Shown: in pieces, positions 1-30,362 of the stretch | Layout: each line of letters opens with the position of its first letter | How positions within the stretch are numbered: position 1 is the stretch's first letter | DNA from: Schoenoplectus triqueter | Lineage: Eukaryota; Streptophyta; Magnoliopsida; Poales; Cyperaceae | Length of the DNA: 33,865 nucleotides | Assembly (NCBI GenBank): GCA_964058805.1 | Contig: CAXKVV010002163.1 | Coordinates: 1-33,865, forward strand | Reading direction: 5' to 3' | Translations under genes and position numbers: made by a program | The notes under the pieces: model-generated | Database searches by the model: none | Told to the model about the DNA's origin: nothing | Seen by the model: only the letters and a program-made list of their open reading frames with translations

Positions 1-2294
1 ATTTTTATTATTTCTATTTATTATCTATAGAAAGATATAAGATTTTTTTATTAGTCATAAGGGATGAAATTCATTATGTTTTTATTAAAACTATTATTTT
101 TACCACATTTTATTCATCAAAAGTATATTTTTGTATATTTGTATAAAAATAACAAAAGAAATACAATTCATATTATATTATCATTCTTTATTATAAAGAA
201 AATGCATTTTACTATTTATTACCATAGTAGTATATTTTTGTTTATTTTGTGCTATTTATTTTATTATTATTTTTTTTACAGAAAATATCAACATAATATC
301 TATTATTATTATTATTATTATATTTTTTTTATTTATCAAAGAATATAGCTAATCTCATCATTTATTATAGTATATTACTATCACTATTATTATTTCATGG
401 AAAATCACTTGAAAAATCACTAAAATATATCTAGTTATTATTTATGATTTTTATTTGTATTTTTGAAATTTTTATAGTATTTAAAATGACAAGTCAAAGC
501 TAAGCCAAATATACCAATATATGTGATGTATTTTGCTTTTAAAATGTTTTATTATGATTATATTTCTAAAACCGGAATATTATTGTATAGAAAAATAGTA
601 TGAAAAATAAGAAAATTTTAGAAACAAATTTGAGTCAATTTGGAGTTCAATAGCATTTTCAAATCATTTATTTACTCTATATTATCACTATTCTGTTATT
701 ATTTAATTAATGGGCTTAATATGGGCCGCCAGATCTGTATCAAGATCAGCGCCTATCTTTCATTTAACTCTATTCTTATTTGGGCCGTCGGATATGCCTC
801 AAGATTAATTCATATGAGATGTAAGGCCCAGATTCACTTATCACGTTATAAGCATCTGATTTATTCCAAGATTCGCGTGTGCGCTTCAATATTCGTGTTC
901 TTGCGCTAATGTTCGTGCTGGTGCGTTTCATTGACTCTCCGGTCAACAGCACCTTCAAGATTTGCGCCGACGGCATTCCCGGCGGCTGAGGCCGTCTCCT
1001 CCCGATCAGATAGTCCCTCCGGTGTCGTCTCTCCTCGGGGAATTGTTCTACAACATCTGATCGATGATCTATGCGGTGGATCGTGCTATATACCAATGCT
1101 AGATGAACTGATTTGGTACCAACCGGTACCGAATCTCGGATTCCACAAATTCAACACAATTACTTATTTCTTTCAACAATTAATCATTCAATTGACATCG
1201 TATACCTATGTAAATGCCTCCTATCATGATTAGAACAATTCAAATTGGTTGATGACTCCATTACTCGGGATGGTTGTCAAAGTGCAATAGAAGCCGTTGG
1301 TACCGATTACAATTTACTTCAAATTCATGTTATTCATTGATCAATATTGACATTGTCATGCTTAATACTCTTTATAACACTTATTCAAACCATGATATGC
1401 ATGCATATGCTTATAATCTTCCCTAATTCTCAATCTGAAACTCAATTTCAGAAACGGAACGCGATAACAGTATTGAAACTCCAAATCAGTCGAGTTCTCA
1501 AGATTATATCTGAGATCAATCGACTTCAAAGGACTCTACAGACCCTAATGCATATAGTATTAACAAGGATCAAGATAATTCTCACTCAAGAATCAAGAAT
1601 TGATCAATGAACTCAACTGTTACCGAGTTCTCAAGTTGAACTGAGATCAATCGATTTAACAGCCTCATTCATCAACCTTTAAGCAAAATTCTTTGAAAGA
1701 AATGAAAGATTTATACTATATAAACTTGCAATGCATGAAATAAAGAAGAAAATCATGAAGAAAGGGTTGAAATTCAAAGAAATTTAGAAACAGCACAGTA
1801 AAATGCTGATACACAGTGGCAATTACATCTTTAAAGCTCCAATCTTCAAGAATTAAATCTACTAATCCCTAATTGACAGATAATAGAGTATATAGCTTAC
1901 CTCCAAACAAGTAATTGAAGCAAATAGATCGAGTTCTCAAGTTAAAACTGAGATCAATCGATTCTATCAGAGTTCTCTTCTGGATTCTTGCTTCTTCTTA
2001 CTCTCTCTCTCTCTATAAAGTGTTCTCTCTATCTCTTGTCTTCTGTATGCGTGTGTATTGTCTCTCTTCCTTGTTCTGTGTGTGTAATTGGTTTATATAA
2101 GCAATTGAGATGGTGTACCAAATGAATTAGAGCCATACACCACTTATACACCATCAATTGAACTCCCTTGGCTCATGAACATGGTTCTTCAATTCTGTTA
2201 TTGTTTCTGTTATGATGTGGGCCCCATTCAAGCGAATCCAAAGTTCAAGCCTTTGGCTGTTGACCATGTTTGACTCACATCTCATATGCTGCTA

Positions 2295-2307
2295 GAACCT
2301 TCTAGAA
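2295..2307. promoter_or_regulatory. Perfect three-unit heat-shock element in the LTR
   Basis: The bases read GAAnnTTCnnGAA, the canonical three-unit heat-shock factor site. The same site is at 24356-24368 in the 5' LTR. For minus-strand transcription it sits about 200 bp upstream of the TATA-like sequence at 24154-24160. Function is inferred from the motif only. Confidence 0.5.
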
Positions 2308-3359
2308 CATCTAAACATACTATATATACTCATTCCAATGTATCTAGAGCATTCATTCATCCTCTGCCATTGTTATCTTCTTCCAAAGCTCAAAGCTTTA
2401 TTACCCGATTCCATCTCTTGGCCAACAACATACCTCCACCATCCAATTGATAATCTCCATCACCTAAACAGCATCGTGAGGGTGCATAGAGGCTGCCAGC
2501 ATTGGTAATTCGAGCTGAGAGTGCAAGGTTTCAAATTTCATCAATTTGCCCGATTTTATCACTCCCTCTCAATTGCTTCAATTCATCCCCTAATTGCTGC
2601 TTCTTTCTTCATCTACAGCGTCGCCTAAGCAAGTGGAGAAGGTTTGCACCATCAATTTTGGATTCTGAAGTAGGAATTGAAGTGCTTCATCAATTGCCCG
2701 AGGTATTCATCTCTCTCAATCACCTTATTCACTTATTGTTTTTCAATTCTGATCAATTGCACATACTCTCCCATGTATAGGCTAACTCTGGGTGAAAGGA
2801 ATTGGAGTTGCGAGCTTTGGAGAGCTTGATCACCTCTAATGGCGCCTTCTGCCTCGTCGAGAAGAAGGAAGAAGAGAGGGAGGGGAGAAGGAGAAGAGAA
2901 AGAGGAGGGTGCGTCCGGCGCACAGAGTCCACAGCTAGGTGGGACCCACAGTCAGAGGCGTAATACAAGTGAGCCAGGTACACATCGCTTCTTTCCTTTG
3001 ATTTAAATCTCTGATTAGATCTGCGTATAGACTAGGTGCATGATTGCCTGTGTGAGCTATACATTCATAAACCTGACAAATGGGCCCCACATGTAAGTAT
3101 ATGAATCTCGGCCTATTAGTCCAGCTGTGGATTAGTTAACCCCTTGCTTAGATTTAATCAATCTGACTTGGCACACTCTGATAGGTCCACTTGTTTAATC
3201 AATCTATTAATCATCTGTTATAGTGCTAATCCATGCTGAGGTGGCTTCTATTAATAAGGGCCATGTGTCACCCCTGGGGCCCATATTGCCTAATTGGACC
3301 AATGAGATACATCCATGTGTTAATAGTTGTAGTGTAGCCTGCTGAGGTGTTTTGCTAGC

Positions 3360-3672
3360 AGACTGCCATGTGGCATATGAGGAGTGAGGTGTGCTGCTGT
3401 GGTGCTGCCATGTGGTAAGTGTAGGGATGAGGTGGGCCTGTCAGGTAGAGCCATGTGGCACTGGGGTAGTGAGGTGTCCTCCTCTGGCTGTGCCATATGG
3501 CACAAGGTTGGGTTAAGTGGACCTCTGGTGTGGTGCCATGTGGCACTAGGGTGGTGAGGTGGCCCACTGGCTGTCTGCCACGTGGCACTAAGGTGGGGCC
3601 CACCTGTCAGTGACTCATACCTGGGTGGGGCCCACTTGCTGACATGGCCCAATGAGAGGCTGCCACGTGGCA
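3360..3672. repeat. E-box/G-box tandem array, about 42.5 bp period
   Basis: Diverged tandem units share a core of TGCCAnnTGGCA. The CANNTG hexamers start at 3367, 3409, 3452, 3494, 3537, 3579 and 3664. Steps are 42, 43, 42, 43, 42 and then 85, so one slot near 3621 has decayed. Two cores (3579, 3664) are the full G-box CACGTG in a GCCACGTGGC palindrome; most others are CATGTG and one is CATATG. The same array lies at 25421-25733 in the other LTR. Spacing near four helical turns would place all sites on one face of the DNA. Plant bZIP or bHLH factors bind such cores. Confidence 0.75.
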
Positions 3673-4108
3673 CACCCTCTCTCTTCGATTATTTTATACC
3701 TCCTGTGTTTCTTGTACCCAGTTTGTACCCAGAGCTGCTGTTATCCCCAACTTGCACCCGGGATTGCTCTGATCAAATCTCAGCCTTTGATTAATCTATT
3801 TAATCTGCCTTTATTTTCCCTGAATTTATTCTGATAGCTCCACTTATCCAAAAATTATGAAATTTTCACCAAAAATCCCTAAATTCATGATGATCATCCC
3901 TGTAATTTTTAATTCCATTTTTACCCCTCCTTCTCTGAATTAAAAATTCTCTTATTCATAAAACCCTATTATTCCTTATGAATTAATCCCTGATTTCATT
4001 TGTAGCTCAATGTCTCTGCCAATTATCTCCCTTTTGCAGAAACCACCCTAACTAAATACCAATTAGACTTATATTGATATTCATTAGGGCTTGATTTGAT
4101 CAAATGCT

Positions 4109-4312
4109 GACTACTTATCAGCAATTAATACAAATCTAGACTTGATCAGGTGGTTGCTCCCGACTTTGGCACCTGATCAGTCTTGTGAAATTGACTTTCA
4201 ATCCCTTAACATGAGGGTGACTTGGTCAAAGAACTGACTACTTATCAGTAATTGACACAAATCAAAGCATGGTTAGGTGGTTGCTCGCAGCTTTGGCACC
4301 AGGTCAGCCTTG
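4109..4312. repeat. Direct repeat pair (about 117 bp apart) with inverted-repeat arms
   Basis: Two related segments start near 4109 and 4225; each has a CTGA...TCAG stem and then a GGTGGTTGCTC...GGCAC block. In the first, the flanks form a perfect 10-bp inverted repeat (TGATCAGGTG and CACCTGATCA). The second copy keeps only the inner GGTG/CACC pairing. Confidence 0.55.
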
Positions 4313-4560
4313 AAAGCAAAATCACATTTGGAATTTCTTATAACTAGCTGCATCAAAATGCTAGCTTGGCATTGACATCATTTCATGTAGCATAGGGATT
4401 ATACTGCTTCAGCTCCTTTCTAGGGTTAGCTCCAAAGGCAGATTTCTAGGGTTCAATTCTGACTCCTTCAATAGGTCACTGGGGTGTGGGGTCCACCTGT
4501 CAGTGAAAATAGTCACATGGTGACTCATCAGATAGGCTATGCTGTTAGATTCATCTGCAA

Positions 4561-5000
4561 GGGACTGCCAGGTGGGTCCCATTTGTCAGAGAAAATGTAA
4601 TCAAATGGCTGACCCATCAGGAGATTTTCTCTCTCCTAAATCTCCCGAGGGTCAGCCACCTCGAATGAGTAGGAGGTGGTGGGGTATTTATATCCTCGTC
4701 TTTCACCGTATTATTTCATTGTGGGATTAATGCTTAACCTCTGTTCCGGGTTGGTTAGCTTTCTTAGCAAAATAGGCTAGGTCCATGTCATTGGAGCTGC
4801 TCATAAGGGACTGCCATGTGGGTCCCACTTGTCAGAAAAGATATAATCACATGGTGACACCCAAGAGGTCTCCTCTCTCCCTCGATCTTCTTGGGTGTCA
4901 CACATGCTGAGTGGATAGAGAATAGCGGGGTATTTATATTCTTCACTTTGCGCTCAGCATTCCATTGTGGGACTAATGGATTTGTTCCGGGGTTATGCAG
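4561..5000 (+). promoter_or_regulatory. Tandem 246-bp repeats with hairpin plus TATA, candidate antisense promoter
   Basis: Two diverged copies begin at 4561 and 4807. Each has, in the same order, a GTGGGTCCCA-TTGTCAG-type motif, a long inverted repeat, TATTTATAT (4685-4693 and 4931-4939), and a CATTGTGGGA-TAATG block. The inverted repeats are GGCTGACCC/GGGTCAGCC (4607-4615, 4649-4657) and TGACACCCAAGA/TCTTGGGTGTCA (4855-4866, 4889-4900), so the arms differ but pairing is kept. A partial third copy starts near 4480. The TATA boxes point rightward on the plus strand, toward the spliced gene at 5151-8803. Start sites near 4715 or 4965 are inferred. Confidence 0.55.
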
Positions 5001-5101
5001 CGACTTTTCCTGATCAGTGGGCCACCTTTCCACTGCTCTCTTTCTTCTTCCCCTTTCTTATGATTTTATCATCAATTTATTTCATTTATTCATCCATTCA
5101 T

Positions 5102-5119
5102 CCTTGAAACTTTTCAAGG
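5102..5119. repeat. LTR-terminal perfect hairpin
   Basis: CCTTGAAA-CT-TTTCAAGG is an 8-bp perfect inverted repeat with a 2-nt loop, ending 7 bp from the LTR terminus. It is identical at 27163-27180. Confidence 0.7.
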
Positions 5120-5126
5120 GTAAACA

Positions 5127-5148
5127 AAGAGCCACCCACCAAGACGAG
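5127..5148 (-). other. Expected polypurine tract position (atypical)
   Basis: The minus strand just before the 3' LTR reads GGTGGGTGGCTC followed by TT. It is G-rich but interrupted by T and C, so it is a poor match to a normal polypurine tract. It is listed only because the LTR terminus fixes the position. Confidence 0.3.
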
Positions 5149-5150
5149 CC

Positions 5151-7029
5151 TTGAACGCTCGAAAGGCTTGTCTTGGTGCATTATTCCTTATTATTCATCA
5201 TTTCATTTCTCATGACGTCTTCTCTTCTTCGGGTATTGTAGTTTTATCTCATGACGCTATTCCGCGTCGCCCCTTGAGTCATTATCATTCTTTCTACGAG
5301 GATCCCAGCGATTGGACTCCTCTCGTCTCAGCCATCCGAGCGACTCCTGTCTACCCGCGAGGCGGCGGTTTATTTTTCAGGGATGATCAGCCTCATGACA
5401 TTATGCCCCTTCAGCCCTTAGGCGTTGCTTCCATAGCTCCTTTGACACATCTCCTGGGCAAGGAGATTATCGACGGGGAGGCTCACAGGTGGACTACTGC
5501 TCCCTTCATCACTCCCTTAGAGTGCCATGGATATCAGCTAGAGTGGACCCGGTATGTGCTTATGCGGGAGGGGACTTTGCTCAGGCGAGCCGGGATATAT
5601 GACTCGGTTTTCTTGTCGATGTTTCATTATCATATCGACACACCCTGGCTACGGGCCTTTTGTGAGAGGTGGAACTATTCTACCAACACTCTGTTTATTG
5701 ACGATCGGGAGCTGACTCCGACCCTCTTAGAGATACAGCAGTTGACCGGGCTGCCGATCTTCGGTCATTTCTATGACGAGTTCATGGTCTCGCCCGCTGA
5801 CTCGGGGGACTTCACTCGGTTCCCGCCTTCTTTGCATAGGATTTATGAGATTTACCATCATCTACGGAGGGGGCATCCCGGAGTTCCGTTCAGACATTGG
5901 ATCGCCTATTTCACCGATCGGGTCCACACTCGCCCTACGGGTCTGGCTTCCACCAGAGATCCATTTGGTACAGGTTGGCTCGAGATTCACCACTACGGCC
6001 CTATCCCATCTCAGGATACCCTGTGTTCACATGACGTGGATCGGGAGACTTATCTGACCGCCTTCATCTCTTGGTGGATTTGCTATTTCTTATTGCCTAG
6101 CTCCCCCGCATACACCATTCGGCCTTCGGTGTTCATTATGGCGAGCCTGATCGCGCGTGGCGACATGATTTCTTTGGCCGTGCCTGTACTGGCCAACATT
6201 TATAGGTGCCTCCGTGGTCTGACTTCATCTCGCAGTCCTTCACAGTGCCAGGAGCTGATCCCATGGCATCTGATTAGTGGATGGCTTCATTTACACTGGT
6301 CTGGCTCATATGATCCCGGCATGGCGGTCACGCTACGAGATCGTCTACCCTTATTGAGTGACTTAGCTGGGGTGCAGCCAGCTTCATTGACTCCGGAGGC
6401 TGCCCGGTATAGATTCTTTAGGAGCCGGGACCATCTACGCTTCTCCCGAGACAGATCAGTGGCCCGTGGGACATCTAGGGTTGCTGACAGGATGGTGATT
6501 GACAGCAGGGTTCCCTCTTCTGACTCTTCTAGCATTCGAGCCAGGCCTATTGACTTGGAGTACCTGATCAGTATTCGTCAGGGCTTTCTTCCTCTCAGAT
6601 TGGGCGATTATATGTTCATCGAGCCCTATTCGCCACATAGATGTGCACATCAGTTCGGCTTGGATCAGGATATTCCAGCGCCTTTTCTCCGCCCTATATC
6701 ATTGGCGGCTGATTTGGAGGGTATCGGATGGTGCTACACTCACCTCTTCCGACTAGGCACAGGCACTCGCTATCAGATGGTATCCACCTCTAGGACTTCC
6801 ACCTTCACGAGGCGTTATCAGCAGTGGTATTATGAGACCATTCGCTCTTATCAGTCATATACCCCTCCGGTGGTCGTCCGGAGTACATGTCCGCGAGATG
6901 GCCAGCCTCTATTAGATGGCACCGTTTCGCATGATCGCAGCCCTTTCCCGGCCCTTGCCGCAGAGCCTGTCGACTTTCAGGGTTTAGACAGCCGATTTTC
7001 TCGTGCTCCTGTTAGGACCATTCTTACAG
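5151..7029 (+). CDS. Exon 1 of the antisense PMD-like gene
   Basis: This exon carries the recognisable domain of a gene running opposite to gag-pol. Residues about 120-460 (counted from 5151) look like the plant mobile domain (PMD, 'aminotransferase-like') family: a LREGTLLRRAGIYD-like lead, then LRAFCERWNYSTNTLF, then LTPTLLEIQQLTGLPIFG, the typical 'W...E.T.TL.D...L.GLP.G' pattern. The biochemical role of PMD proteins is poorly known. They occur in plant transposable elements and in genes affecting silencing and development. The frame is open from 5124, but 5151 is TTG; the first in-frame ATG is 5403, before the conserved part. A start in an upstream exon inside the LTR is possible: a GT at 5120 and an AG at 5240-5241 could bound an intron. 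The exon ends at a GT donor at 7030, leaving one base of a codon. PMD assignment is from pattern recognition, not a search. Confidence 0.75.
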
Positions 7030-7106
7030 GTACACTTCATTATCCCTTTAGGTTATTTTCTTTTGATAAGCCCTATCTCATTCTGACCAATTCTCTTTTG
7101 ATTCAG

Positions 7107-8803
7107 AGCTGGCTTATGAGTATGATCACGCGGAGCCCGGGTTCTCGGTCCCTCGTCCACGAGTAGTTGGCGTTCATTCTCAGCCACCCGTCGAGCCACC
7201 GGCTCCAGCTACCATGGGGAGAGATCGAGACGGCGCCTCTCAGCCGTCTTCCCCGTCTTCTTTTCCTTCTCCCACTCCGGGTGATTTTCTTTATTGACTC
7301 GCCTATCCTTATTCGGGCGCACTTTATTTACATCTCTGATTAGGGTTTATTTTTCAGCTTGTGGGACATCTCCTGTGGAGGCTACCCGAGACGATATCAT
7401 AGCAGATCTATCGGCGCCTGCGAGCACTGCTATTCCAGGGTTTTGCACCGACCTTGCCGTCGCAGGTTCGTGTGCTTCATTTAATACCTAGTCGCCAGCA
7501 TGCACTAGTATTTTCATTCTTACATGTAGATTTTACAGACCCTGAGGCTGATGACATGGCATCTCCACACCGCTCGGAGTCTTTCTTCTACGACGGTCCT
7601 GCCTCACCGTCGATCTTGCTGGTACCCACTGGAGACGGTGACTCATTTGATGTGGTTCTGGGGCCAGTGCTCACTCTTGCACTACCAGAGGAGGCTTCTT
7701 TAGAGCAGAGGAGTCCATTGGCTGTCGAGCCCGCAGGCGACGAGCCATTATTGATCGAGGGAGGGCCATCTCATGCTTCTTCATCTCCCGACGGGCAGCC
7801 TCTCATGGCCACAGATAGCAGAGTCTCGACTGAGCGGGTTGCAGTCGATTATGACTCAGAGTTGGATGAGAGCTGGCTGGTGGAGCAGCTATTCCACAGC
7901 CCAGAGACGGGGGTTCCGGCTAGCGAGGGTCTCGCCGAGCCTCATGCTTCTCCCGGTACTTTATATTTCCTTTATCATTTGCCCGTATTTCACTTTTCAT
8001 GTACTTATGCTTCTTCATTTTATTTTGTAGCCGGGTCTGGTACACCTGCGGGTCCTCCTGAGGCGACCGACATCCCTATTCCTGACTCAGTCCCGCCTGT
8101 CTCAGGCGACGAGGCGATAGGTTAGATCTTCTCTTTCTTCTATTTCTTCTTTGGTTATAACAATTTGTCTAACCCATTTATTTTATTTGCAGATGTTTCA
8201 TCGAGGGATGTGCAGCTCGCCTTGGCCGCGCTGGGGGATGCACTCCGAGATACCTTCTTCGGAGGCTATCCGCTGGATTTCGAGATTTTGGACTCTCTGC
8301 CCAGTGGTTTCTCTTTTGACTGGTATGGGCTGATGCGGGGTACCATCGCGCCAGCTCTACTCATTGCACCTCGTCTCGAGAGCACTTTCATTTCTAGGAG
8401 GTGTGAGGAGCTGCTCAGGGCTTACCAGAATGCGAGCTCTCTCGTATACCAGCACGAGTTGGAGATCCATGAGCTACGCAGGCATTTGGAGGCTGCTCGA
8501 CTCCATTATCTTCAGCGGCTCTCCTCTTGTGCCACTCTCCGCTCCATGGGAGTCAGTGGTGGGCCCGCTCGACTGCTCGTGCAGGAGCTAGAGGACCACA
8601 GATTGTCGGTGGAGGGCTTCTCTCGACATTTGGCGGGACGTCTCCCGGAGCTGCAGATTCACACGAGTGCTCGGGATAGTGCCTTCACTCAGTTCTTGGA
8701 CTTCGAGGCAGCTTCGGAGGAGGACAGGCACTTCCTCCATGCTCATCTGGAGACCATCAGTACTGTGCTATTAGAGTTGGAGTCCCGCTTTTTGGGCCCG
8801 TAG
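7107..8803 (+). CDS. Exons 2-6 of the antisense PMD-like gene
   Basis: The reading frame continues through five short introns with GT-AG ends: 7030-7106, 7281-7357, 7466-7529 (or to 7538, a 9-base alternative), 7956-8030 and 8121-8192. All fall in phase 1, and each acceptor has a T-rich tract. Exons are 7107-7280, 7358-7465, 7530-7955, 8031-8120 and 8193-8803, ending in TAG. With exon 1 from 5151 they total 3288 nt, an exact multiple of three (1095 residues; 1011 from the ATG at 5403). The middle part is rich in Pro, Ser, Ala, Asp and Glu and looks disordered. The last exon is helical with a likely coiled coil (around LRAYQNASSL to LRRHLEAARL). I recognise no domain here. The gene is convergent with gag-pol. 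Confidence 0.7.
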
Positions 8804-19665: not shown

Positions 19666-19751
19666 TTAGTCATTTTAGCACATAGAAGACCACTTGTATC
19701 TCTTAAGTATTCTATTTGCCTCTCTCTTTCAGAGATAAGAGGAGAATCTAG

Positions 19752-19999
19752 GTCCCACCGGGCGTGCCAGATCCTGTGCGACCCTTTTTCGCGCGCCGCC
19801 GCACCGCCGCCGGGCGATGGGTTCTGCGGAAGAAGGACACGGAGATCCCTCCCGGATATGCATCCAAATCTTATGTTCCCTGAGTTTATTTTGATAGTCC
19901 CACTGGGCGTGCCAGATCCTGTGCGACCCTTTTTCGCGCGCCGCCGCACCGCCGCCGGGCGATGGGTTCTGCGGAAGAAGGACACGGAGATCCCTCCCG
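19752..19999. repeat. 145-bp tandem duplication across the LTR/primer-site junction
   Basis: Bases 19752-19854 repeat at 19897-19999 with one mismatch (19759 C, 19904 T). Each copy holds a primer-site-like block, a GATCC spacer and then TGTGCGACCC with a GC-rich stretch. Confidence 0.9.
19753..19770 (-). other. Candidate primer-binding site (copy 1; copy 2 at 19898-19915)
   Basis: On the minus strand it reads TGGCACGCCCGGTGGGA; copy 2 has CA for CG in the middle. It starts with the TGG expected of a site pairing with a tRNA CCA end. It lies 5 nt beyond a CA that would end the LTR (CGCACA). I could not name the tRNA from memory. Confidence 0.5.
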
Positions 20000-20002
20000 A
20001 GC

Positions 20003-20056
20003 GTGCATCTGAATGGGTGTCGGCTGATTCTGCCGATTAGAGATATTTGGATGCAC
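20003..20056. other. Nested hairpin at the LTR inner end
   Basis: Outer arms GTGCATC (20003-20009) and GATGCAC (20050-20056) enclose inner arms TCGGC (20020-20024) and GCCGA (20032-20036). Confidence 0.6.
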
Positions 20057-20237
20057 ATTCAGGGGGTTTTTAGTGATTGTGAGTTCTTGTAGATTCCGGT
20101 GGGCGCAAGCCCCCACCGTTAATTACCCTGGGCTACGAACCTCGAGGCACCTCTGGATCTTTGAAAGAGAGAAGCAAATAGTATAGTTAAGAGATGGGCA
20201 AGTGGTCGTCTAAGTTTATAAAAAGGGATCTACGGAA

Positions 20238-20832
20238 GATGAACCTACAAACAGACCGGTTCAATCTAGGGAAGACAAAACCTACAAACAGATCGGTTTT
20301 ATCCTATGGGGACGAACCTACAAACAGACCGGTTCAGTCCATGCCACCTCGAGATGTAACCTTACCAACAGACCAGGTTAATCTCTTCATAGGGGCTTGA
20401 GGTGAGTCTACATACAGACCGACTCGACCTCCGTTGATCTAGAAGATAAACCTACAAACAGACCGGTTCAATCTTAACTAGTCAACAACCAATCACACAA
20501 AATACAACTCGAAGCACTAAGCCGGTTGATCTTGAGGTTGGTGAATCAGGAGAAGGGTGGATATGGCCCACGTATTTCTTCTCACCGATCTTCTAGATCA
20601 TGAATTCGAAACACTAAGCCGATTCATAAACCTAGGAAACACAATTGCACACAATGTCAAACCTGAAGCGCTGGGCCAGTTCAACATTGAGGCATGTGTT
20701 AGTGAAGGAACCTACCTACAGAACGGTTCACATTCACTGTTTTGTGGATGAATCTACCAACAGACCGATTCAATCTCACAGTCTCGGGAAATGAGTCAGG
20801 AGACAAACTCATCAACGGACGAGTTCAGTCTT
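20238..20832. repeat. Array of 12 hairpins with co-varying arms, two loop families
   Basis: Nine units share a loop like TACAAACAGACC. Inner arms (left and right starts) are: GAACC/GGTTC 20241/20258; AAAACC/GGTTTT 20277/20295; GAACC/GGTTC 20314/20331; AACCT/AGGTT 20358/20375; GAGTC/GACTC 20404/20421; AACC/GGTT 20449/20465; GAACC/GGTTC 20708/20725; GAATC/GATTC 20750/20767; AACTC/GAGTT 20806/20821 (10-nt loop). Outer arms also pair and differ: GGAC/GTCC, GAGAT/ATCTC, AGGT/ACCT, AAGAT/ATCTT, AGTGAA/TTCACT, GTG+GAT/ATC+CAC and AGAC/GTCT. They are usually separated from the inner arms by a bulged A or CA on the right side. Three more units share a loop like TCGAAGCACTAAGCCG: CAAC/GTTG 20505/20525, ATGAAT/ATTCAT 20600/20622, and AAC/GTT plus CAATGT/ACATTG around 20652-20689. 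Small ORFs here are incidental. Confidence 0.85.
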
Positions 20833-20848
20833 GCCAGCTCAAATGGTC

Positions 20849-21440
20849 ATGAATTACTTGTTCACGACACCGAGTCATTAAGATGTCACTTCGCTCGGAC
20901 ATCGTAATGTTCTTCATCTTCAAAGTCGACATATCTCTCCATGCTGATGTCGTAGCTTTGGTCAATCTTCAACGAACGTCAAGATGTTCTTGTCTCGACT
21001 AATCATTCTACATGTTGCACTACTTGTGCAAAATCACTATGTAGCCCTACACCCCTTGTGTGAGCGTATTCAATCATGAGTTACTTGCTCATGGCAGCGA
21101 GTCATTAAGATGTCACCTCTCTAGGACATCGTAATGTTCTTCTTCTTCAGAGTCGACGTATATCTTCATGTTAGTATCGTAGCTCTGGTTATTCTTCATC
21201 AAACATCAAGATGTTCCTGTCTCGATGTATCTTCTCAGGTCGCTATCGAAGCCTTAATCTTCTCACGTCAAGATGTTCTTGTCTCAACGCATCTTCTTCA
21301 TATTGCTATCGAAGTCTTAACGTATCTTATTATTATTCATCAAATGTCAAGATGTTCTTGTCTCGACATATCTTCTCATATTGCTATTAAATCCTTAATC
21401 ATCCTACGTCAAGATGTTCTTGTCTTGACTAATCGTTCTA
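20849..21440. repeat. Second hairpin array, loop AAGATGTTCTTGTCTC
   Basis: The 16-nt loop starts at 20981, 21208, 21270, 21349 and 21411. Flanking arms differ but mostly pair: GTC/GAC, ACATC/GATGT, CGT/ACG (with a C-A mismatch next to the loop), ATGTC/GACAT, GTC/GAC. Related pairs in the same stretch are TGAA/TTCA (20850, 20861) against ATGAG/CTCAT (21076, 21088) around a shared TTACTTG loop. GATGTC/GACATC occurs twice (20882/20898, 21109/21125). Confidence 0.75.
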
Positions 21441-21489
21441 AATGTTGTGCGAATATTCCCATGTGACTCTACACTCCTTGTGTGAGCAT

Positions 21490-21572
21490 TTTTTTATTCA
21501 TCTCAAAAATATACAAAGCCCATATAATATCTTTTATTATTATCTCTATTATAAAGATGCATTTATTTATTA

Positions 21573-21616
<44 letters not shown>

Positions 21617-22061
21617 TTTGAATGCTATTTATCTATGTAGAAAACTATTTACAAAAATAATAGAAAATGGGTAGCTATTAACTTAGAACTTTATTTATAT
21701 TTTGGGATTTTTACAATAGCTAGAATAGTAGAATTTTATTTTTATTATTTCTAAACTCTATTTATTCTATAGAAAACCACTTACTAAAATAATAGAAAAT
21801 AAAATGGCTATGATTTTTATTTGTATTTTTAAAATGTTCATAATAGCTAAAGTAATAGGATTTTATTATTATATTCTATTATATTGAAATACTATTCATT
21901 ATGTAAGAATCATTTACAAAATTAAAAGGTGGTTAGCTATACTATTCTACTATTATTATTTTTATTATATTTATTATTTTTTATTATTTTTAATATCTAT
22001 AATAGCTAAAAGAAATCATTACTAATATTCTATTCTATTTATTATACTATTCATTATATCT
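21490..22061. other. AT-rich LTR stretch with a TTA microsatellite
   Basis: The stretch is non-coding and dominated by ATTATT-type sequence, with a pure run of TTA units near 21570-21616. Short motifs such as TAGAAAACTA--TTAC-AAAATAATAGAAAAT recur near 21640 and 21770. No gene was seen. Confidence 0.7.
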
Positions 22062-24153
22062 ATTTTTATTATTTCTATTTATTATCTATAGAAAGATATA
22101 AGATTTTTTTATTAGTCATAAGGGATGAAATTCATTATGTTTTTATTAAAACTATTATTTTTACCACATTTTATTCATCAAAAGTATATTTTTGTATATT
22201 TGTATAAAAATAACAAAAGAAATACAATTCATATTATATTATCATTCTTTATTATAAAGAAAATGCATTTTACTATTTATTACCATAGTAGTATATTTTT
22301 GTTTATTTTGTGCTATTTATTTTATTATTATTTTTTTTACAGAAAATATCAACATAATATCTATTATTATTATTATTATTATATTTTTTTTATTTATCAA
22401 AGAATATAGCTAATCTCATCATTTATTATAGTATATTACTATCACTATTATTATTTCATGGAAAATCACTTGAAAAATCACTAAAATATATCTAGTTATT
22501 ATTTATGATTTTTATTTGTATTTTTGAAATTTTTATAGTATTTAAAATGACAAGTCAAAGCTAAGCCAAATATACCAATATATGTGATGTATTTTGCTTT
22601 TAAAATGTTTTATTATGATTATATTTCTAAAACCGGAATATTATTGTATAGAAAAATAGTATGAAAAATAAGAAAATTTTAGAAACAAATTTGAGTCAAT
22701 TTGGAGTTCAATAGCATTTTCAAATCATTTATTTACTCTATATTATCACTATTCTGTTATTATTTAATTAATGGGCTTAATATGGGCCGCCAGATCTGTA
22801 TCAAGATCAGCGCCTATCTTTCATTTAACTCTATTCTTATTTGGGCCGTCGGATATGCCTCAAGATTAATTCATATGAGATGTAAGGCCCAGATTCACTT
22901 ATCACGTTATAAGCATCTGATTTATTCCAAGATTCGCGTGTGCGCTTCAATATTCGTGTTCTTGCGCTAATGTTCGTGCTGGTGCGTTTCATTGACTCTC
23001 CGGTCAACAGCACCTTCAAGATTTGCGCCGACGGCATTCCCGGCGGCTGAGGCCGTCTCCTCCCGATCAGATAGTCCCTCCGGTGTCGTCTCTCCTCGGG
23101 GAATTGTTCTACAACATCTGATCGATGATCTATGCGGTGGATCGTGCTATATACCAATGCTAGATGAACTGATTTGGTACCAACCGGTACCGAATCTCGG
23201 ATTCCACAAATTCAACACAATTACTTGTTTCTTTCAACAATTAATCATTCAATTGACATCGTATACCTATGTAAATGCCTCCTATCATGATTAGAACAAT
23301 TCAAATTGGTTGATGACTCCATTACTCGGGATGGTTGTCAAAGTGCAATAGAAGCCGTTGGTACCGATTACAATTTACTTCAAATTCATGTTATTCATTG
23401 ATCAATATTGACATTGTCATGCTTAATACTCTTTATAACACTTATTCAAACCATGATATGCATGCATATGCTTATAATCTTCCCTAATTCTCAATCTGAA
23501 ACTCAATTTCAGAAACGGAACGCGATAACAGTATTGAAACTCCAAATCAGTCGAGTTCTCAAGATTATATCTGAGATCAATCGACTTCAAAGGACTCTAC
23601 AGACCCTAATGCATATAGTATTAACAAGGATCAAGATAATTCTCACTCAAGAATCAAGAATTGATCAATGAACTCAACTGTTACCGAGTTCTCAAGTTGA
23701 ACTGAGATCAATCGATTTAACAGCCTCATTCATCAACCTTTAAGCAAAATTCTTTGAAAGAAATGAAAGATTTATACTATATAAACTTGCAATGCATGAA
23801 ATAAAGAAGAAAATCATGAAGAAAGGGTTGAAATTCAAAGAAATTTAGAAACAGCACAGTAAAATGCTGATACACAGTGGCAATTACATCTTTAAAGCTC
23901 CAATCTTCAAGAATTAAATCTACTAATCCCTAATTGACAGATAATAGAGTATATAGCTTACCTCCAAACAAGTAATTGAAGCAAATAGATCGAGTTCTCA
24001 AGTTAAAACTGAGATCAATCGATTCTATCAGAGTTCTCTTCTGAATTCTTGCTTCTTCTTACTCTCTCTCTCTCTATAAAGTGTTCTCTCTATCTCTTGT
24101 CTTCTATATGCGTGTGTATTGTCTCTCTTCCTTGTTCTGTGTGTGTAATTGGT

Positions 24154-24160
24154 TTATATA
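24154..24160 (-). promoter_or_regulatory. Candidate TATA box for gag-pol transcription
   Basis: The minus strand reads GCTTATATAAACC, followed downstream by an A/C/G-rich leader-like stretch (ACACACAGAACAAGGAAGAG). A second candidate (TATATATA at 24382-24389) is close by. If this one is used, the 5' part of the RNA inside the LTR would be over 4 kb long. Confidence 0.35.
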
Positions 24161-25420
24161 AGCAATTGAGATGGTGTACCAAATGAATTAGAGCCATACA
24201 CCACTTATACACCATCAATTGAACTCCCTTGGCTCATGAACATGGTTCTTCAATTCTGTTATTGTTTCTGTTATGATGTGGGCCCCATTCAAGCGAATCC
24301 AAAGTTCAAGCCTTTGGCTGTTGACCATGTTTGACTCACATCTCATATGCTGCTAGAACCTTCTAGAACATCTAAACATACTATATATACTCATTCCAAT
24401 GTATCTAGAGCATTCATTCATCCTCTGCCATTGTTATCTTCTTCCAAAGCTCAAAGCTTTATTACCCGATTCCATCTCTTGGCCAACAACATACCTCCAC
24501 CATCCAATTGATAATCTCCATCACCTAAACAGCATCGTGAGGGTGCATAGAGGCTGCCAGCATTGGTAATTCGAGCTGAGAGTGCAAGGTTTCAAATTTC
24601 ATCAATTTGCCCGATTTTATCACTCCCTCTCAATTGCTTCAATTCATCCCCTAATTGCTGCTTCTTTCTTCATCTACAGCGTCGCCTAAGCAAGTGGAGA
24701 AGGTTTGCACCATCAATTTTGGATTTTGAAGTAGGAATTGAAGTGCTTCATCAATTGCCCGAGGTATTCATCTCTCTCAATCACCTTATTCACTTGTTGT
24801 TTTTCAATTCTGATCAATTGCACATACTCTCCCATGTATAGGCTAACTCTGGGTGAAAGGAATTGGAGTTGCGAGCTTTGGAGAGCTTGATCACCTCTAA
24901 TGGCGCCTTCTGCCTCGTCGAGAAGAAGGAAGAAGAGAGGGAGGGGAGAAGGAGAAGAGAAAGAGGAGGGTGCGTCCGGCGCACAGAGTCCACAGCTAGG
25001 TGGGACCCACAGTCAGAGGCGTAATACAAGTGAGCCAGGTACACATCGCTTCTTTCCTTTGATTTAAATCTCTGATTAGATCTGCGTATAGACTAGGTGC
25101 ATGATTGCCTGTGTGAGCTATACATTCATAAACCTGACAAATGGGCCCCACATGTAAGTATATGAATCTCGGCCTATTAGTCCAGCTGTGGATTAGTTAA
25201 CCCCTTGCTTAGATTTAATCAATCTGACTTGGCACACTCTGATAGGTCCACTTGTTTAATCAATCTATTAATCATCTGTTATAGTGCTAATCCATGCTGA
25301 GGTGGCTTCTATTAATAAGGGCCATGTGTCACCCCTGGGGCCCATATTGCCTAATTGGACCAATGAGATACAGCCATGTGTTAATAGTTGTAGTGTAGCC
25401 TGCTGAGGTGTTTTGCTAGC

Positions 25421-25733
25421 AGACTGCCATGTGGCATATGAGGAGTGAGGTGTGCTGCTGTGGTGCTGCCATGTGGTAAGTGTAGGGATGAGGTGGGCCT
25501 GTCAGGTAGAGCCATGTGGCACTGGGGTAGTGAGGTGTCCTCCTCTGGCTGTGCCATATGGCACAAGGTTGGGTTAAGTGGACCTCTGGTGTGGTGCCAT
25601 GTGGCACTAGGGTGGTGAGGTGGCCCACTGGCTGTCTGCCACGTGGCACTAAGGTGGGGCCCACCTGTCAGTGACTCATACCTGGGTGGGGCCCACTTGC
25701 TGACATGGCCCAATGAGAGGCTGCCACGTGGCA
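25421..25733. repeat. E-box/G-box array, 5' LTR copy
   Basis: This is the 22061-offset twin of 3360-3672, with identical cores and spacing. Confidence 0.75.
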
Positions 25734-27441
25734 CACCCTCTCTCTTCGATTATTTTATACCTCCTGTGTTTCTTGTACCCAGTTTGTACCCAGAGCTGCT
25801 GTTATCCCCAACTTGCACCCGGGATTGCTCTGATCAAATCTCAGCCTTTGATTAATCTATTTAATCTGCCTTTATTTTCCCTGAATTTATTCTGATAGCT
25901 CCACTTATCCAAAAATTATGAAATTTTCACCAAAAATCCCTAAATTCATGATGATCATCCCTGTAATTTTTAATTCCATTTTTACCCCTCCTTCTCTGAA
26001 TTAAAAATTCTCTTATTCATAAAACCCTATTATTCCTTATGAATTAATCCCTGATTTCATTTGTAGCTCAATGTCTCTGCCAATTATCTCCCTTTTGCAG
26101 AAACCACCCTAACTAAATACCAATTAGACTTATATTGATATTCATTAGGGCTTGATTTGATCAAATGCTGACTACTTATCAGCAATTAATACAAATCTAG
26201 ACTTGATCAGGTGGTTGCTCCCGACTTTGGCACCTGATCAGTCTTGTGAAATTGACTTTCAATCCCTTAACATGAGGGTGACTTGGTCAAAGAACTGACT
26301 ACTTATCAGTAATTGACACAAATCAAAGCATGGTTAGGTGGTTGCTCGCAGCTTTGGCACCAGGTCAGCCTTGAAAGCAAAATCACATTTGGAATTTCTT
26401 ATAACTAGCTGCATCAAAATGCTAGCTTGGCATTGACATCATTTCATGTAGCATAGGGATTATACTGCTTCAGCTCCTTTCTAGGGTTAGCTCCAAAGGC
26501 AGATTTCTAGGGTTCAATTCTGACTCCTTCAATAGGTCACTGGGGTGTGGGGTCCACCTGTCAGTGAAAATAGTCACATGGTGACTCATCAGATAGGCTA
26601 TGCTGTTAGATTCATCTGCAAGGGACTGCCAGGTGGGTCCCATTTGTCAGAGAAAATGTAATCAAATGGCTGACCCATCAGGAGATTTTCTCTCTCCTAA
26701 ATCTCCCGAGGGTCAGCCACCTCGAATGAGTAGGAGGTGGTGGGGTATTTATATCCTCGTCTTTCACCGTATTATTTCATTGTGGGATTAATGCTTAACC
26801 TCTGTTCCGGGTTGGTTAGCTTTCTTAGCAAAATAGGCTAGGTCCATGTCATTGGAGCTGCTCATAAGGGACTGCCATGTGGGTCCCACTTGTCAGAAAA
26901 GATATAATCACATGGTGACACCCAAGAGGTCTCCTCTCTCCCTCGATCTTCTTGGGTGTCACACATGCTGAGTGGATAGAGAATAGCGGGGTATTTATAT
27001 TCTTCACTTTGCGCTCAGCATTCCATTGTGGGACTAATGGATTTGTTCCGGGGTTATGCAGCGACTTTTCCTGATCAGTGGGCCACCTTTCCACTGCTCT
27101 CTTTCTTCTTCCCCTTTCTTATGATTTTATCATCAATTTATTTCATTTATTCATCCATTCATCCTTGAAACTTTTCAAGGGTAAACAATCTCCACACCCG
27201 AAAGAGATGGTTCTGTCTAGGAAAGATTGAATTTAAAGTGGTCCTCGTGACCCCGATCTTTCCTGGGAGCCCCTTTTACGTGTCCTGATAACTGGCCGAA
27301 AAGGAACTTTGTCACGTTATCAAATTACTTTATCGTACCAGAAGGAATTAACTGTTTTGAAATCATATAAAATGTTTATATGCTTTTTACGGTATAAATA
27401 AAGAACAAAGATGTAGTTGCAAAATAAAGAATTGAGAACTG

Positions 27442-27655
27442 ATAGTTATATATGTGACTGATTCATGTATATATATACAAAATGTTTGTATGAGCAGGTA
27501 AATTAGATTTACTGCTTTGATATGAAATGTATCTTATCATAGATGCAAAGCTACTTCTATTGGATAGATAGTAGTTATATACGTGACTGATTCATGTATA
27601 TATACAAAATGTTTGTATGAGCTGGTAAATTGGATTTACCGCTTTGATAATAAAT
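27442..27655. repeat. Direct repeat pair, offset about 128 bp
   Basis: The block AGTTATATA-GTGACTGATTCATG ... ACAAAATGTTTGTATGAGC ... TTTGATA is present twice, starting near 27442 and 27571. The ending hairpins differ: GCA-GTAAAT/ATTTAC-TGC in the first, AGC-GGTAAAT/ATTTACC-GCT in the second. Confidence 0.75.
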
Positions 27656-28115
27656 GAGTAAATTAGATTTATCATTTTAAGGAACCGTGAAAGAATGTTA
27701 TGTCAAAGAAAGACTGGAAAAGGAACTTTCAATGGTCTTTCTGGCAGACGTCTTTTCACGTGTTCATAAGTCTGTTTAAAGTCAGCTTAATAAACTGACT
27801 AATTATAAATGTGTAAATTAGATTTATCATTTTAAGGAACCGTGAAAGAATGTTATGTCAAAGAAAGACTGGAAAAAGAACTTTCAATGGTCTTTCTGGC
27901 AGACGTCTTTTCACGTGTTCATAAGTCTGTTTAAAGTTAGCTTAATAAACTGACTAATTATAAATGTGTAAATTAGATTTATCATTTTTAAGAAACCGTG
28001 AAGGAAGGTTGTGTCAAAGAAAGACTGGAAAAGGAACTTTCAGTGGTCTTTCTGGCAGACATCTTTTACGTGTTCGTAAGTCTGTTTAAAGTCAGTTTAA
28101 CAAACTGACTGCTTA
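27651..28115. repeat. Three tandem 155-bp repeats
   Basis: The TAAATTAGATTTATC block starts at 27659, 27814 and 27969, exactly 155 bp apart. Each unit carries AGAAAGAC/GTCTTTCT arms and an AGTC-GTTTA/TAAAC-GACT hairpin. Units 1 and 2 are nearly identical; unit 3 is more diverged. Confidence 0.9.
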
Positions 28116-28556: not shown

Positions 28557-29786
28557 ATGGCTAAAGAAACTCTTACTAATACGTTCCGTGCGCTCATACT
28601 AAGACATGAGAAACTCGAGTACGTCCTTAACACACCAATCTCTGCACAGCCTGCAGTAGGCTGCACAGCAAATGAAGTCACCATGTACAACAAGCACAAA
28701 GAAGATGAGCTTGATGTACAAAGTTTATTGGTCAAGAAATTTAAGGTGACTAAATCTCTGCTGAGTCATAAGATGACTGAGGGCAGCTCTCTTGACACTC
28801 ACATGCTCCGTATGACGAGCGATGTTGAGCAGTTGGAGAAGCTTAACAGTCCGTTGAACAAAGAGTTTGTTACGGATGTTATCCTGAACTCTCTCCCTCC
28901 TAGCTATTCTAATTTCATCAGGAATTATCATATGCTGGGAATGGACAAGAGCTTGCAGGAGCTCCAAGGGATGTTGAGGATCGCTGATGGGGACATGAAG
29001 AAGAGTTCTTCTATCCTCGTGATCCAAGAAGGTGCGAGGAAGATTAAAAAGATGAAACGCAAAGCGACTCCCAAAATGGCACCTAAGTACAAAGGCAAAG
29101 GGAAGATGGTTCCTAATCAGAACACTTCCAAGGCAAAAGCTTCTACCTCTGACTGCTTTTATTGTCAAGGCAATGGTCATTGGAGGAGGAACTGCCCTAA
29201 GTATCTGGAGGATTTGAGGACGGGAAAAGTTCCCAAAGTTTCAACCTCAGGTATTTTCATGATTGAAGTTAACGTTGTTACCTCTATTTATGATTGGGTA
29301 TTGGATACTGGATCATGTGCTCATATTTGTTCAAATATACAGGCACTAAAGAATAGGAGGAAACTACGTAATAAGGAAGTACAACTCCGAGTTGGAAATG
29401 GAGCACAAGTTGCAGCCGTAACAGTCGGAAGTATAGAGTTGTATTTGCCTAGCGGGCTTGTAATGGAACTTGAAAATGTATATTTTGTTCCAAGTATTTC
29501 CAGAAACATCATTTCAATCTCATGTTTAGAAATGAATGGTTTCTCTTTTGTTATAAAGGACAATGGTTGTTCTATATATAAAGATGAGTTATATTATGGA
29601 TCTTCTTTTATGATGAATGATCTTTATATACTGGAAATAGACAAACCTATATTTAACATCAATAAACGACTCAAAACATCTCATGAAAGTATGACTTTCA
29701 TATGGCATTATCGCCTTGTTCATATAAACGAGAAACGCATCAAAAGTTACATGAAGTTGGACTTCTTGATAATTTTAATATTGTGA
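28557..29786 (+). pseudogene. Ty1/copia gag, zinc knuckle, protease and pre-integrase fragment
   Basis: The frame starts at an ATG and runs 409 residues. After a divergent N-terminus comes a copia Gag region (LPPSYSNFIRNYHM), a basic stretch, a CX2CX4HX4C knuckle (CFYCQGNGHWRRNCPKYL), and a protease active site WVLDTGSCAHIC. A pre-integrase segment (FIWHYRLVHINEKRIKSY) follows. The Gag N-terminal part looks shortened near residues 50-60 compared with relatives I know. The frame ends in non-homologous residues because of indels at about 29745-29815, after which integrase resumes. The knuckle, protease and integrase order is that of copia elements. Confidence 0.88.
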
Positions 29787-29804
29787 ATCTTGTTTACGTG
29801 AAAA

Positions 29805-30362
29805 ATGACCAAATTGTCTTTCTCCAAGAAGGGCGAAAGGACAAGTGACTTATTAGCCCTTATACACACAGATGTATGCGGACCAATGAGTACTCGTACA
29901 AGAAATGGTGATCGCTACTTTATCACGTTTACTGATGATTACAGTAGATATGGTTATGTCTACTTGATGAGACATAAGTCTGAATCCTTTGAAAAGTTCA
30001 AGGAATTCAAGACTGAAGTAGAAAATCAACTGAATAAAAGTATTAAGGCCTTACGGTCAGACCGTGGAGGCGAATACTTAAGTTATGAGTTTACAATGTA
30101 CTTAAAAGAATGTGGGATAGTCTCACAACTCACACCTCCGGGAACGCCGCAATGGAACGGTGTTTCTGAGAGGAGGAATCGAACTCTGTTAGACATGGTT
30201 CGTTCCATGATGAGTAATACCACACTCCCAAAAATGTTTTGGGGGCACGCACTAGAAACTGCTGCACTAACAATAAATAGGGTTCCATCCAAGTCAGTAG
30301 AAAAGACTCCATATGAGTTATGGTTTGGTAAGATACCAAATATGTCTTATCTTAAAATTTAG
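29805..30362 (+). pseudogene. Ty1/copia integrase core
   Basis: The catalytic triad is intact: Asp in HTDVCGPM, Asp in RSDRGGEY, and Glu in PQWNGVSERRNRTL. The frame ends at a TAG at 30360-30362, where relatives have Trp in the motif before GC-VFVK. Homology continues straight on after it, so this is a nonsense mutation. It has the same frame number as the gag fragment but is separated from it by frameshifts. Confidence 0.9.

Follow-up and report, generated by a model that had tools for sequence, protein, structure and literature searches.

A covarying hairpin array in the LTRs of Ogre-like retrotransposons of Schoenoplectus triqueter, a candidate protein-binding platform on the element's RNA

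A stretch of 33,865 nt of the Schoenoplectus triqueter genome (contig CAXKVV010002163.1; the whole stretch is called the window here) contains a row of short inverted repeats whose arms differ from unit to unit and whose intervening sequence is nearly constant. The questions raised by this locus are whether such an array acts as RNA or as DNA, and what it could be for. A sequence-only reading had described nine stem-loops at this place, and all nine were found (20236-20836, in the sense of gag-pol, i.e., the minus strand). That the units form hairpins we regard as highly probable. For their role, the explanation that we favour, while putting it a little short of an even chance, is a multivalent protein-binding platform on RNA, most likely for the element's own Gag.

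The minus strand of the window carries an Ogre-like (Tat lineage) Ty3/gypsy element, assigned from its domain content rather than from an RT/RH/INT tree. In the gag-pol polyprotein, RNase H (RT_RNaseH) occupies aa 2279-2382, a second RNase H (aRH, RVT_3) aa 2452-2564 and the integrase (H2C2/rve) aa 2672-2840. What marks angiosperm Tat elements (Ogre and Retand) is an additional RNase H domain placed between the usual one and the integrase, and a plant mobile domain, encoded here in an extra ORF, is present in 57% of the Ogre elements surveyed (PMC6317226). Given these two features, the element appears to be Ogre-like. The prevailing, though not universal, Ogre layout of two ORFs split by a short region or intron (PMC6317226) is absent, as gag-pol is one ORF. 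The LTR copies start 22,061 bp apart, which together with one LTR of 7,268 bp gives a whole element of ~29 kb; this size and the LTR of 7.3 kb are above those quoted for Ogre, up to 24 kb for the element and roughly 5 kb for the LTR (PMC6317226). The two LTR pieces in the window (1-5127 and 22062-27188) are 99.88% identical over 5127 bp, so the insertion is recent. Two CPYHR...GH...C motifs in the polyprotein, at aa 805 and aa 1631, which we take to be zinc knuckles, have similar surroundings, suggesting a duplicated polyprotein segment. Pieces of Ty1/copia at 28557-30362 adjoin the Ogre-like element, and before them lies a 155-bp x 3 tandem array (27650-28110).

Since the second LTR copy is cut by the contig end, the end of the LTR cannot be read from the window by itself, and the limits were mapped through other copies in the source assembly (82 Mb in 2086 contigs). 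The LTR start is fixed by the end of the repeat 1-5127/22062-27188 and by the start of homology in locus L199. At the other side, 19 of 37 family copies (matches of >=88% and >=120 nt, the window's own copy L001 included) stop, 15 at 19914-19920 and four at the duplicate end 19774/19775, and the other 18 continue into gag. In diverged families, the match breaks off at 19917-19920 in 9 of 11 loci and falls short of that point in the other two. An end at 19920, followed by a probable primer binding site (PBS; 19897-19914), bears out the earlier placement of the array in the LTR near the primer site. The PBS is named from its sequence and from the LTR end, and a tRNA scan of the window found no tRNA.

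Two other readings of these limits were rejected. One set the LTR end at 21930, as seen in one nested insertion; the sequence continues there in 242 matches at <=2 mismatches, no PBS was found near 21930, and the join looks like a truncated copy. The other put the array in a leader downstream of the LTR, and arose because LTR identity in the window reaches only down to 22062; array copies ~22.06 kb apart are LTR pairs, and 19 of the 37 copies stop at the LTR end. A 145-bp tandem duplication (19752-19869 and 19897-20014) includes both the LTR end and the probable PBS, and in 4 of the 37 copies (L003, L006, L130 and L134) the LTR ends at the inner duplicate, a pattern suggestive of an LTR lengthened by use of the second PBS.

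Table 1. Positions in the window of the element, its LTRs and the units of the hairpin array
Feature	Position	Strand	Details
gag-pol, single ORF of 3031 aa	10549..19644	-	gag, protease (below cut-off), RT, RNase H, second RNase H, integrase
Antisense extra ORF with plant mobile domain	5151..7166	+	PF10536, E 3.4e-26
5' LTR, ~7.27 kb (7,268 bp)	19920..27187	-	minus-strand TGTTTACC...GGTCGCACA; starts TGTT, ends CACA
3' LTR, cut by contig start; its array outside the window	1..5126	-	repeat 1-5127/22062-27188
Probable primer binding site (PBS), TGGCACGCCCAGTGGGAC	19897..19914	-	5 nt past LTR end; from sequence and LTR end
Block conserved between families, just downstream of array	19920..20207	-	putative start of R/U5
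Hairpin array	20236..20836	-	inside LTR, 317-917 nt from PBS-side end
Hairpin U1, stem GAACC/GGTTC, loop GGTCTGTTTGTA	20236..20270	-	from folds and model alignment
Hairpin U2, stem AAACC/GGTTT, loop GATCTGTTTGTA	20273..20307	-	
Hairpin U3, stem GAACC/GGTTC, lower stem GGAC/GTCC	20309..20343	-	
Hairpin U4, stem AACCT/AGGTT, lower stem GAGAT/ATCTC	20353..20387	-	
Hairpin U5, stem GAGTC/GACTC, lower stem AGGT/ACCT	20399..20433	-	
Hairpin U6, stem GAACC/GGTTT (one G·U)	20443..20477	-	
Block of second loop type	20495..20700	-	clear hairpins ~20495-20540 and 20590-20640, weak one 20655-20700; from folds
Hairpin U7, stem GAACC/GGTTC, loop GTTCTGTAGGTA	20703..20737	-	
Hairpin U8, stem GAATC/GATTC, loop GGTCTGTTGGTA	20745..20779	-	
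Hairpin U9, divergent loop	20800..20836	-	

Read in the sense direction, each unit is built from a short lower stem and, beyond a 1-nt bulge (usually U), an upper stem of 5 bp capped by a loop of 12 nt; the units are regularly spaced, mostly at 42-46 nt. The loop common to eight hairpins is GRUCUGUUNGUA, with exceptions (0-3 mismatches to TACAAACAGACC); the near-constant 12-nt spacer described earlier therefore holds for eight units, and the ninth (20801-20836) differs in its loop. The co-varying arm pairs are as had been described, except that the unit at 20443-20477 is fully paired only with a sense G·U (GAACC/GGTTT). Including the hairpins of a second loop type, the array totals about 11-12. 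The region 20200-20850 folds at -206.8 kcal/mol on the minus strand (z -4.36, 20 shuffles), and the plus strand has a z of -3.83. In hairpin precursors of miRNAs and siRNAs the stem is long and near-perfect, at about 20 bp or more, and the stems here have ~9-11 bp. Upstream of the array, at ~20980-21430, there is a repeated short palindrome, CAAGAACATCTTG (sense), together with duplications of 152 bp and 110 bp.

Pairing in the nine units was compared with 500 shuffles of an alignment of 9 base pairs by 9 units (81 cells). Standard pairs fill 91.4% of the cells versus 77.1% after shuffling, a value that none of the 500 shuffles reaches. Two-sided changes occur at eight of the nine base pairs (reached by 1 shuffle in 500), and the covariation score is 0.627, versus 0.302 in shuffled alignments and 0.083-0.148 for partners displaced by 1-3 columns. 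By one further measure, the count of additional pair types (12), the alignment is ordinary, as 148 of the 500 shuffles reach that count.

Are such arrays found elsewhere in the genome? A covariance model built from the nine window units only (R1) gave no further match in the rest of the window at E up to 10. The check that had been proposed, taking such a model to related LTRs, was borne out in three of the four other loci searched, where R1 finds long arrays (L154, L159 and L160), and failed in the fourth, L161, which has one weak match and no array. The choice of these four loci had rested on the loop of a single unit, found there with other arms, and not on arms fitting the window. A further pattern search returned 102 exact genome matches (0 for the reversed control) and gave 30 loci. 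Units were then gathered from the window and 33 loci with the loop as the sole criterion (four loop variants, <=2 mismatches); as the loci overlap, units were made distinct by a 52-nt key, and a few single matches on the opposite strand are counted.

Among the 259 distinct loop-defined units, all five upper pairs are possible in 184, four in 47 and fewer in 28, such that 231 keep at least four (G·U counted). When the 73 units bearing the arm used for fetching are left out, four or five upper pairs are kept by 158 of 186, and the mean is 4.33 of 5, versus 3.51 with the arms re-dealt (largest of 1000: 3.70). The complementary arm pairs seen include GAACT/AGTTC, GAATC/GATTC, GAGTC/GACTC, GAACC/GGTTC, GATCT/AGATC, GGACT/AGTCC, GAGTT/AACTC and AACCT/AGGTT; units with plain A·C also exist (e.g., AAACT/AGTTC in 8 units). 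For 237 distinct 33-nt units the mean fold is -5.70 kcal/mol in sense, -4.12 in antisense and -2.88 with shuffled letters, and all five upper pairs are present in the predicted fold of 151 of them. The fetched stretches (~3 kb), which cut arrays, hold 4-21 units each; the largest single array has ~19 units (L159, L178), and the 21 units of L185 span two arrays. In L185 (C177), an array 89% like that of the window ends at the LTR end and a second one, 75% like it, lies within ~260 nt, suggesting a nested insertion.

We also placed the covariation on a tree of the 237 units, with a null in which the inferred substitutions were re-placed at random positions, branch by branch (300 simulations). 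The upper stem is paired at 0.900, versus a null mean of 0.470 and maximum of 0.770, and its two-sided changes, at 0.133, lie beyond the null (at most 0.112). Without the fetch arm (177 units) its pairing is 0.867, versus at most 0.792. The lower stem is paired at 0.723, within the null range (maximum 0.809), and its two-sided changes (0.113) exceed the null maximum of 0.102. In our own implementation of an R-scape-like G-test (200 simulations, 435 column pairs), the top four column pairs are predicted pairs, three upper and one lower, and a fifth predicted pair ranks sixth; only 2 of the 10 predicted pairs reach E 0.05 over all column pairs. Because trees of 33-nt repeats are rough, we read these tests as support for pairing and not as a formal R-scape result.

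Orthologous copies of U4, aligned by their flanks, show how the arms change. The window has AACCT/AGGTT, six stretches have GATCT/AGATC and three GATCT/AGGTC; GACCT/AGGTC occurs in L160 and AATCT/AGGTT in L154/L182. The intermediates are G·U in the sense strand, and single A·C cases occur among the orthologues at U6 and U7. The claim that pairing itself has been kept is upheld by the covariation of the nine units, the loop-defined units, the tree-based null and the orthologues of U4.

The recent copies of the family allow constraint to be viewed over a shorter time. We counted variable sites in the 37 copies (29 distinct), leaving out U4, the unit by which 29 of the 37 had been retrieved. The upper stem has 3 variable sites of 70, the loop 8/84, the lower stem 7/56, U9 12/36, the linkers 16/99, the rest of the region 77/465 and the second-type hairpin block 23/219. 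The upper stem is less variable than the linkers (p 0.024) and the rest (p 0.0061), as are stem and loop taken together (11/154 versus 93/564 for linker and outside, p 0.0028). Taken by itself, the loop shows no significant reduction in variable sites (p 0.2 and 0.14), and neither does the lower stem (p 0.57). U9 folds well yet is not constrained among the copies, and may be a decaying unit.

These counts bear on the possibility that the array has little or no function, and is a hairpin that was duplicated in tandem and maintained through template switching or arm-to-arm correction during reverse transcription. The variable number of units per fetched stretch and their regular spacing would suit such an origin, as would the comparison between families, where linkers are as alike as stems: over 25 stretches, identity is 0.761 for the loop, 0.807 for the upper stem, 0.757 for the lower stem and 0.808 for the linker. 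Loop and stems are not more alike between families than linkers, in part because the loops of the window have shifted and because the arms change freely in pairs. Against this stand the depletion of variants in the upper stems of the 37 copies, the loop that is held while the arms differ, and the G·U intermediates at U4, which point to stepwise compensation. We consider an array of this functionless kind very improbable.

If pairing is kept, it could be kept in RNA or in DNA, and the earlier reading had left the choice between a structured RNA and a protein-bound cruciform. Changes on the tree from Watson-Crick to G·U outnumber those to A·C by 76 to 45 (binomial p 0.006), or by 61 to 43 without the fetch arm, and present-day upper stems have 74 G·U versus 46 A·C. 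Given that transitions outside the stems of the 37 copies lean the opposite way (47 favouring G·U, 66 against), mutation bias is not a likely cause of the excess. The loop points in the same direction as these counts in energetic terms: a G·A mismatch closes it (positions 1-12) in 205 of the 237 units, and such a closing mismatch is favourable in the sense strand only. Loop positions 2-11 plus 3-10 are able to pair in 219 of 237. The lower stem has no G·U excess at present (87 versus 85 A·C), and neither do the internal nodes (103 versus 104; 110 versus 81 without the fetch arm). Given these parities, the lower counts without the fetch arm and the units with plain A·C, the strand signal is moderate, and a sense-strand RNA is likely to be the form under selection rather than a DNA cruciform.

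The DNA-level alternative would have the inverted repeats act upstream of a promoter, as transcription-factor sites or cruciforms, like the palindromes in Sirevirus LTRs. Repeated dyad motifs do lie in the LTR just upstream of a TATA-like sequence, and Sirevirus motifs cluster upstream of the TATA box (PMC2829016); the lower stem, without strand asymmetry of its wobbles, would also suit DNA. A factor site, however, conserves its arms, and here the arms vary and their pairing is kept. A cruciform predicts no asymmetry of G·U over A·C, which is present overall, and hairpins this short (5 plus 4 bp of stem around a 12-nt loop) are not readily extruded from duplex DNA. We hold this alternative to be improbable.

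Where the array falls in the transcript depends on the transcription start. The earlier reading placed it in R/U5 near the primer site; the nearness to the primer site stands, R/U5 does not stand as established, and the sequence downstream leans towards U3. The block 20207-19920 is 76-86% identical between families (loci whose match covers from 20204-20208 on). It holds a TATA-like CTATA(C/G)TATTTG at 20186-20175 followed by a pyrimidine patch at 20174-20163, and we suspect that 20186-20163 is the best candidate for the block that sets the transcription start. A promoter-like block in this position would favour an array in U3. With transcription starting near 20150, the array would belong to U3 and lie close to the 3' end of the genomic RNA, and a start upstream of the array would put it in R/U5; with either start, the full-length sense RNA should contain the array at least once. 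Other conserved blocks with TATA-like letters, at 22781-22462 and 21076-20997, lie in AT-rich DNA. The promoter-like block recurs reversed just before gag, as an inverted repeat (20139-20215 / 19680-19753, 80% over 77 nt).

A position in U3 also bears on who might read the hairpins. They could be sites for a host RNA-binding protein rather than for Gag, with an array in the 3' UTR (U3) or the leader that governs nuclear export, stability, polyadenylation or translation in the manner of a CTE. All of the structural evidence would apply equally to such sites. Export and stability elements act near the RNA 3' end, which is where the core-promoter-like block would put the array, and the loop is alike across diverged families within one host. 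No known host motif was identified, and no Rfam family matched in the window. The second letter of the loop is G in six of the eight window units and A in nearly all units elsewhere, an A to G shift in one family that fits a partner tracking the element slightly better than a host protein. Within the window family, the choice of A or G in the loops of U1 and U3 occurs in all four combinations. A host protein as the reader of the array seems to us rather unlikely.

In the explanation that we prefer, the array would form RNA hairpins on the full-length sense transcript of the Ogre-like retrotransposon. The stems, free in sequence so long as they pair, would present the loop, and the loop would be the recognition site of a trans-acting RNA-binding protein. 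A near-constant loop carried many times on interchangeable stems is what would be expected of a repeated binding site along one RNA; 4-21 units per fetched stretch have the shape expected for multivalent binding, and many units in a row would make that binding multivalent and cooperative. The likeliest binder would be the element's own Gag, via its zinc-knuckle region, and Gag binding would mark the genomic RNA for retrosome targeting or packaging. Packaging signals usually lie in the 5' leader, and a promoter downstream of the array would leave the hairpins absent from that leader, which counts against packaging. In Ty3, localisation and packaging of the RNA require sequences in the UTRs or POL as well as the zinc finger of NC (PMC4974528, PMC11381356), and for this reason we would place Gag first and a host RNA-binding protein second.

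That the array is transcribed, that a protein binds it, that this protein is Gag and that packaging is served are steps that we infer. Gag binding and packaging as the role of the array we would call possible, at well under an even chance. The broader proposal, that a copy-number-variable array of up to ~19 interchangeable hairpins marks the own RNA of giant plant retrotransposons, its loop shifting as if to track a co-evolving partner such as Gag, is offered tentatively and is on the doubtful side.

The loops might also contact one another, or some other stretch of the element, in dimerisation or another form of RNA-RNA pairing; retroelement RNAs can use their hairpin loops for kissing interactions. 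The loop here, however, is not self-complementary. The window has 12 loop-complementary sites on the sense strand at <=3 mismatches, all of them with 3, and the 28 loop matches on both strands are what chance predicts (26.7 expected); ~2.1 kb of the 3' LTR lie outside the window. We see only a slight chance that the array works in this way.

The compact, repeated and covarying hairpin with its near-constant loop offers a ready probe in the form of a ~31-nt RNA, with which to ask whether Gag or host proteins bind it and how Ogre-like elements, among the largest plant retrotransposons, select their own RNA. The array would also define a new RNA family and could serve to mark LTRs of this kind.

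The sequence-only reading had known of no described element of this form, and our comparisons agree with it so far as they reach. A search of the window against Rfam 15 gave 0 matches at the gathering score, and no such array was found in the literature consulted, mostly at the level of titles and abstracts, which does not establish its absence in print. The terms stem-loop, hairpin, psi and dimeriz- are absent from the main text of a 2025 review on the host factors of LTR elements in plants. A 14-mer of loop and arm occurs in at least 120 stretches of viral contigs, with a single match each among the 80 matches listed, which we take as chance; a 22-base hairpin pattern has 0 matches in viral contigs and 2 in prokaryote genomes, likewise taken as chance. 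A 500-aa query from the RT region found no confirmed relative in viral contigs.

In the parts consulted of PMC6317226 and PMC11963269, a hairpin array is not mentioned for Ogre/Tat elements, the host element's own kind, which share its great size, second RNase H and plant mobile domain ORF. Nearest in layout are the repeats of Sirevirus LTRs (Bousios et al. 2010, PMC2829016), which also occur in many copies (8-32 per element), are dyad-symmetric and lie in plant LTRs upstream of the TATA box. The Sirevirus motifs are palindromes of Ty1/copia elements; copies in one element are commonly >85% identical, and most have a CGG-CCG core with few bases in between. By contrast, in the Ty3/gypsy element of the window the arms differ between units and vary with compensation, a 12-nt loop is conserved, and the CGG-CCG core is absent.

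A likeness to the CTE-type elements at retroviral 3' ends, which are repeated or symmetric RNA structures near the RNA 3' end, holds if the array is in U3; in sequence, the two were compared through Rfam only. In retroviruses a packaging signal usually comprises a single stem-loop or a few distinct ones within the 5' leader, with the loop as the likely protein target. Like these and the packaging and dimerisation signals of Ty1 and Ty3, the array would be a structured RNA in a non-coding end, with a paired upper stem, a weaker lower stem and an unpaired loop that may be what a protein recognises. Even in Ty1 and Ty3, the packaging sequences have yet to be delimited precisely (PMC4974528, PMC11381356). 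What sets the array apart from such packaging signals is its form, up to ~19 near-equivalent modules inside the LTR.
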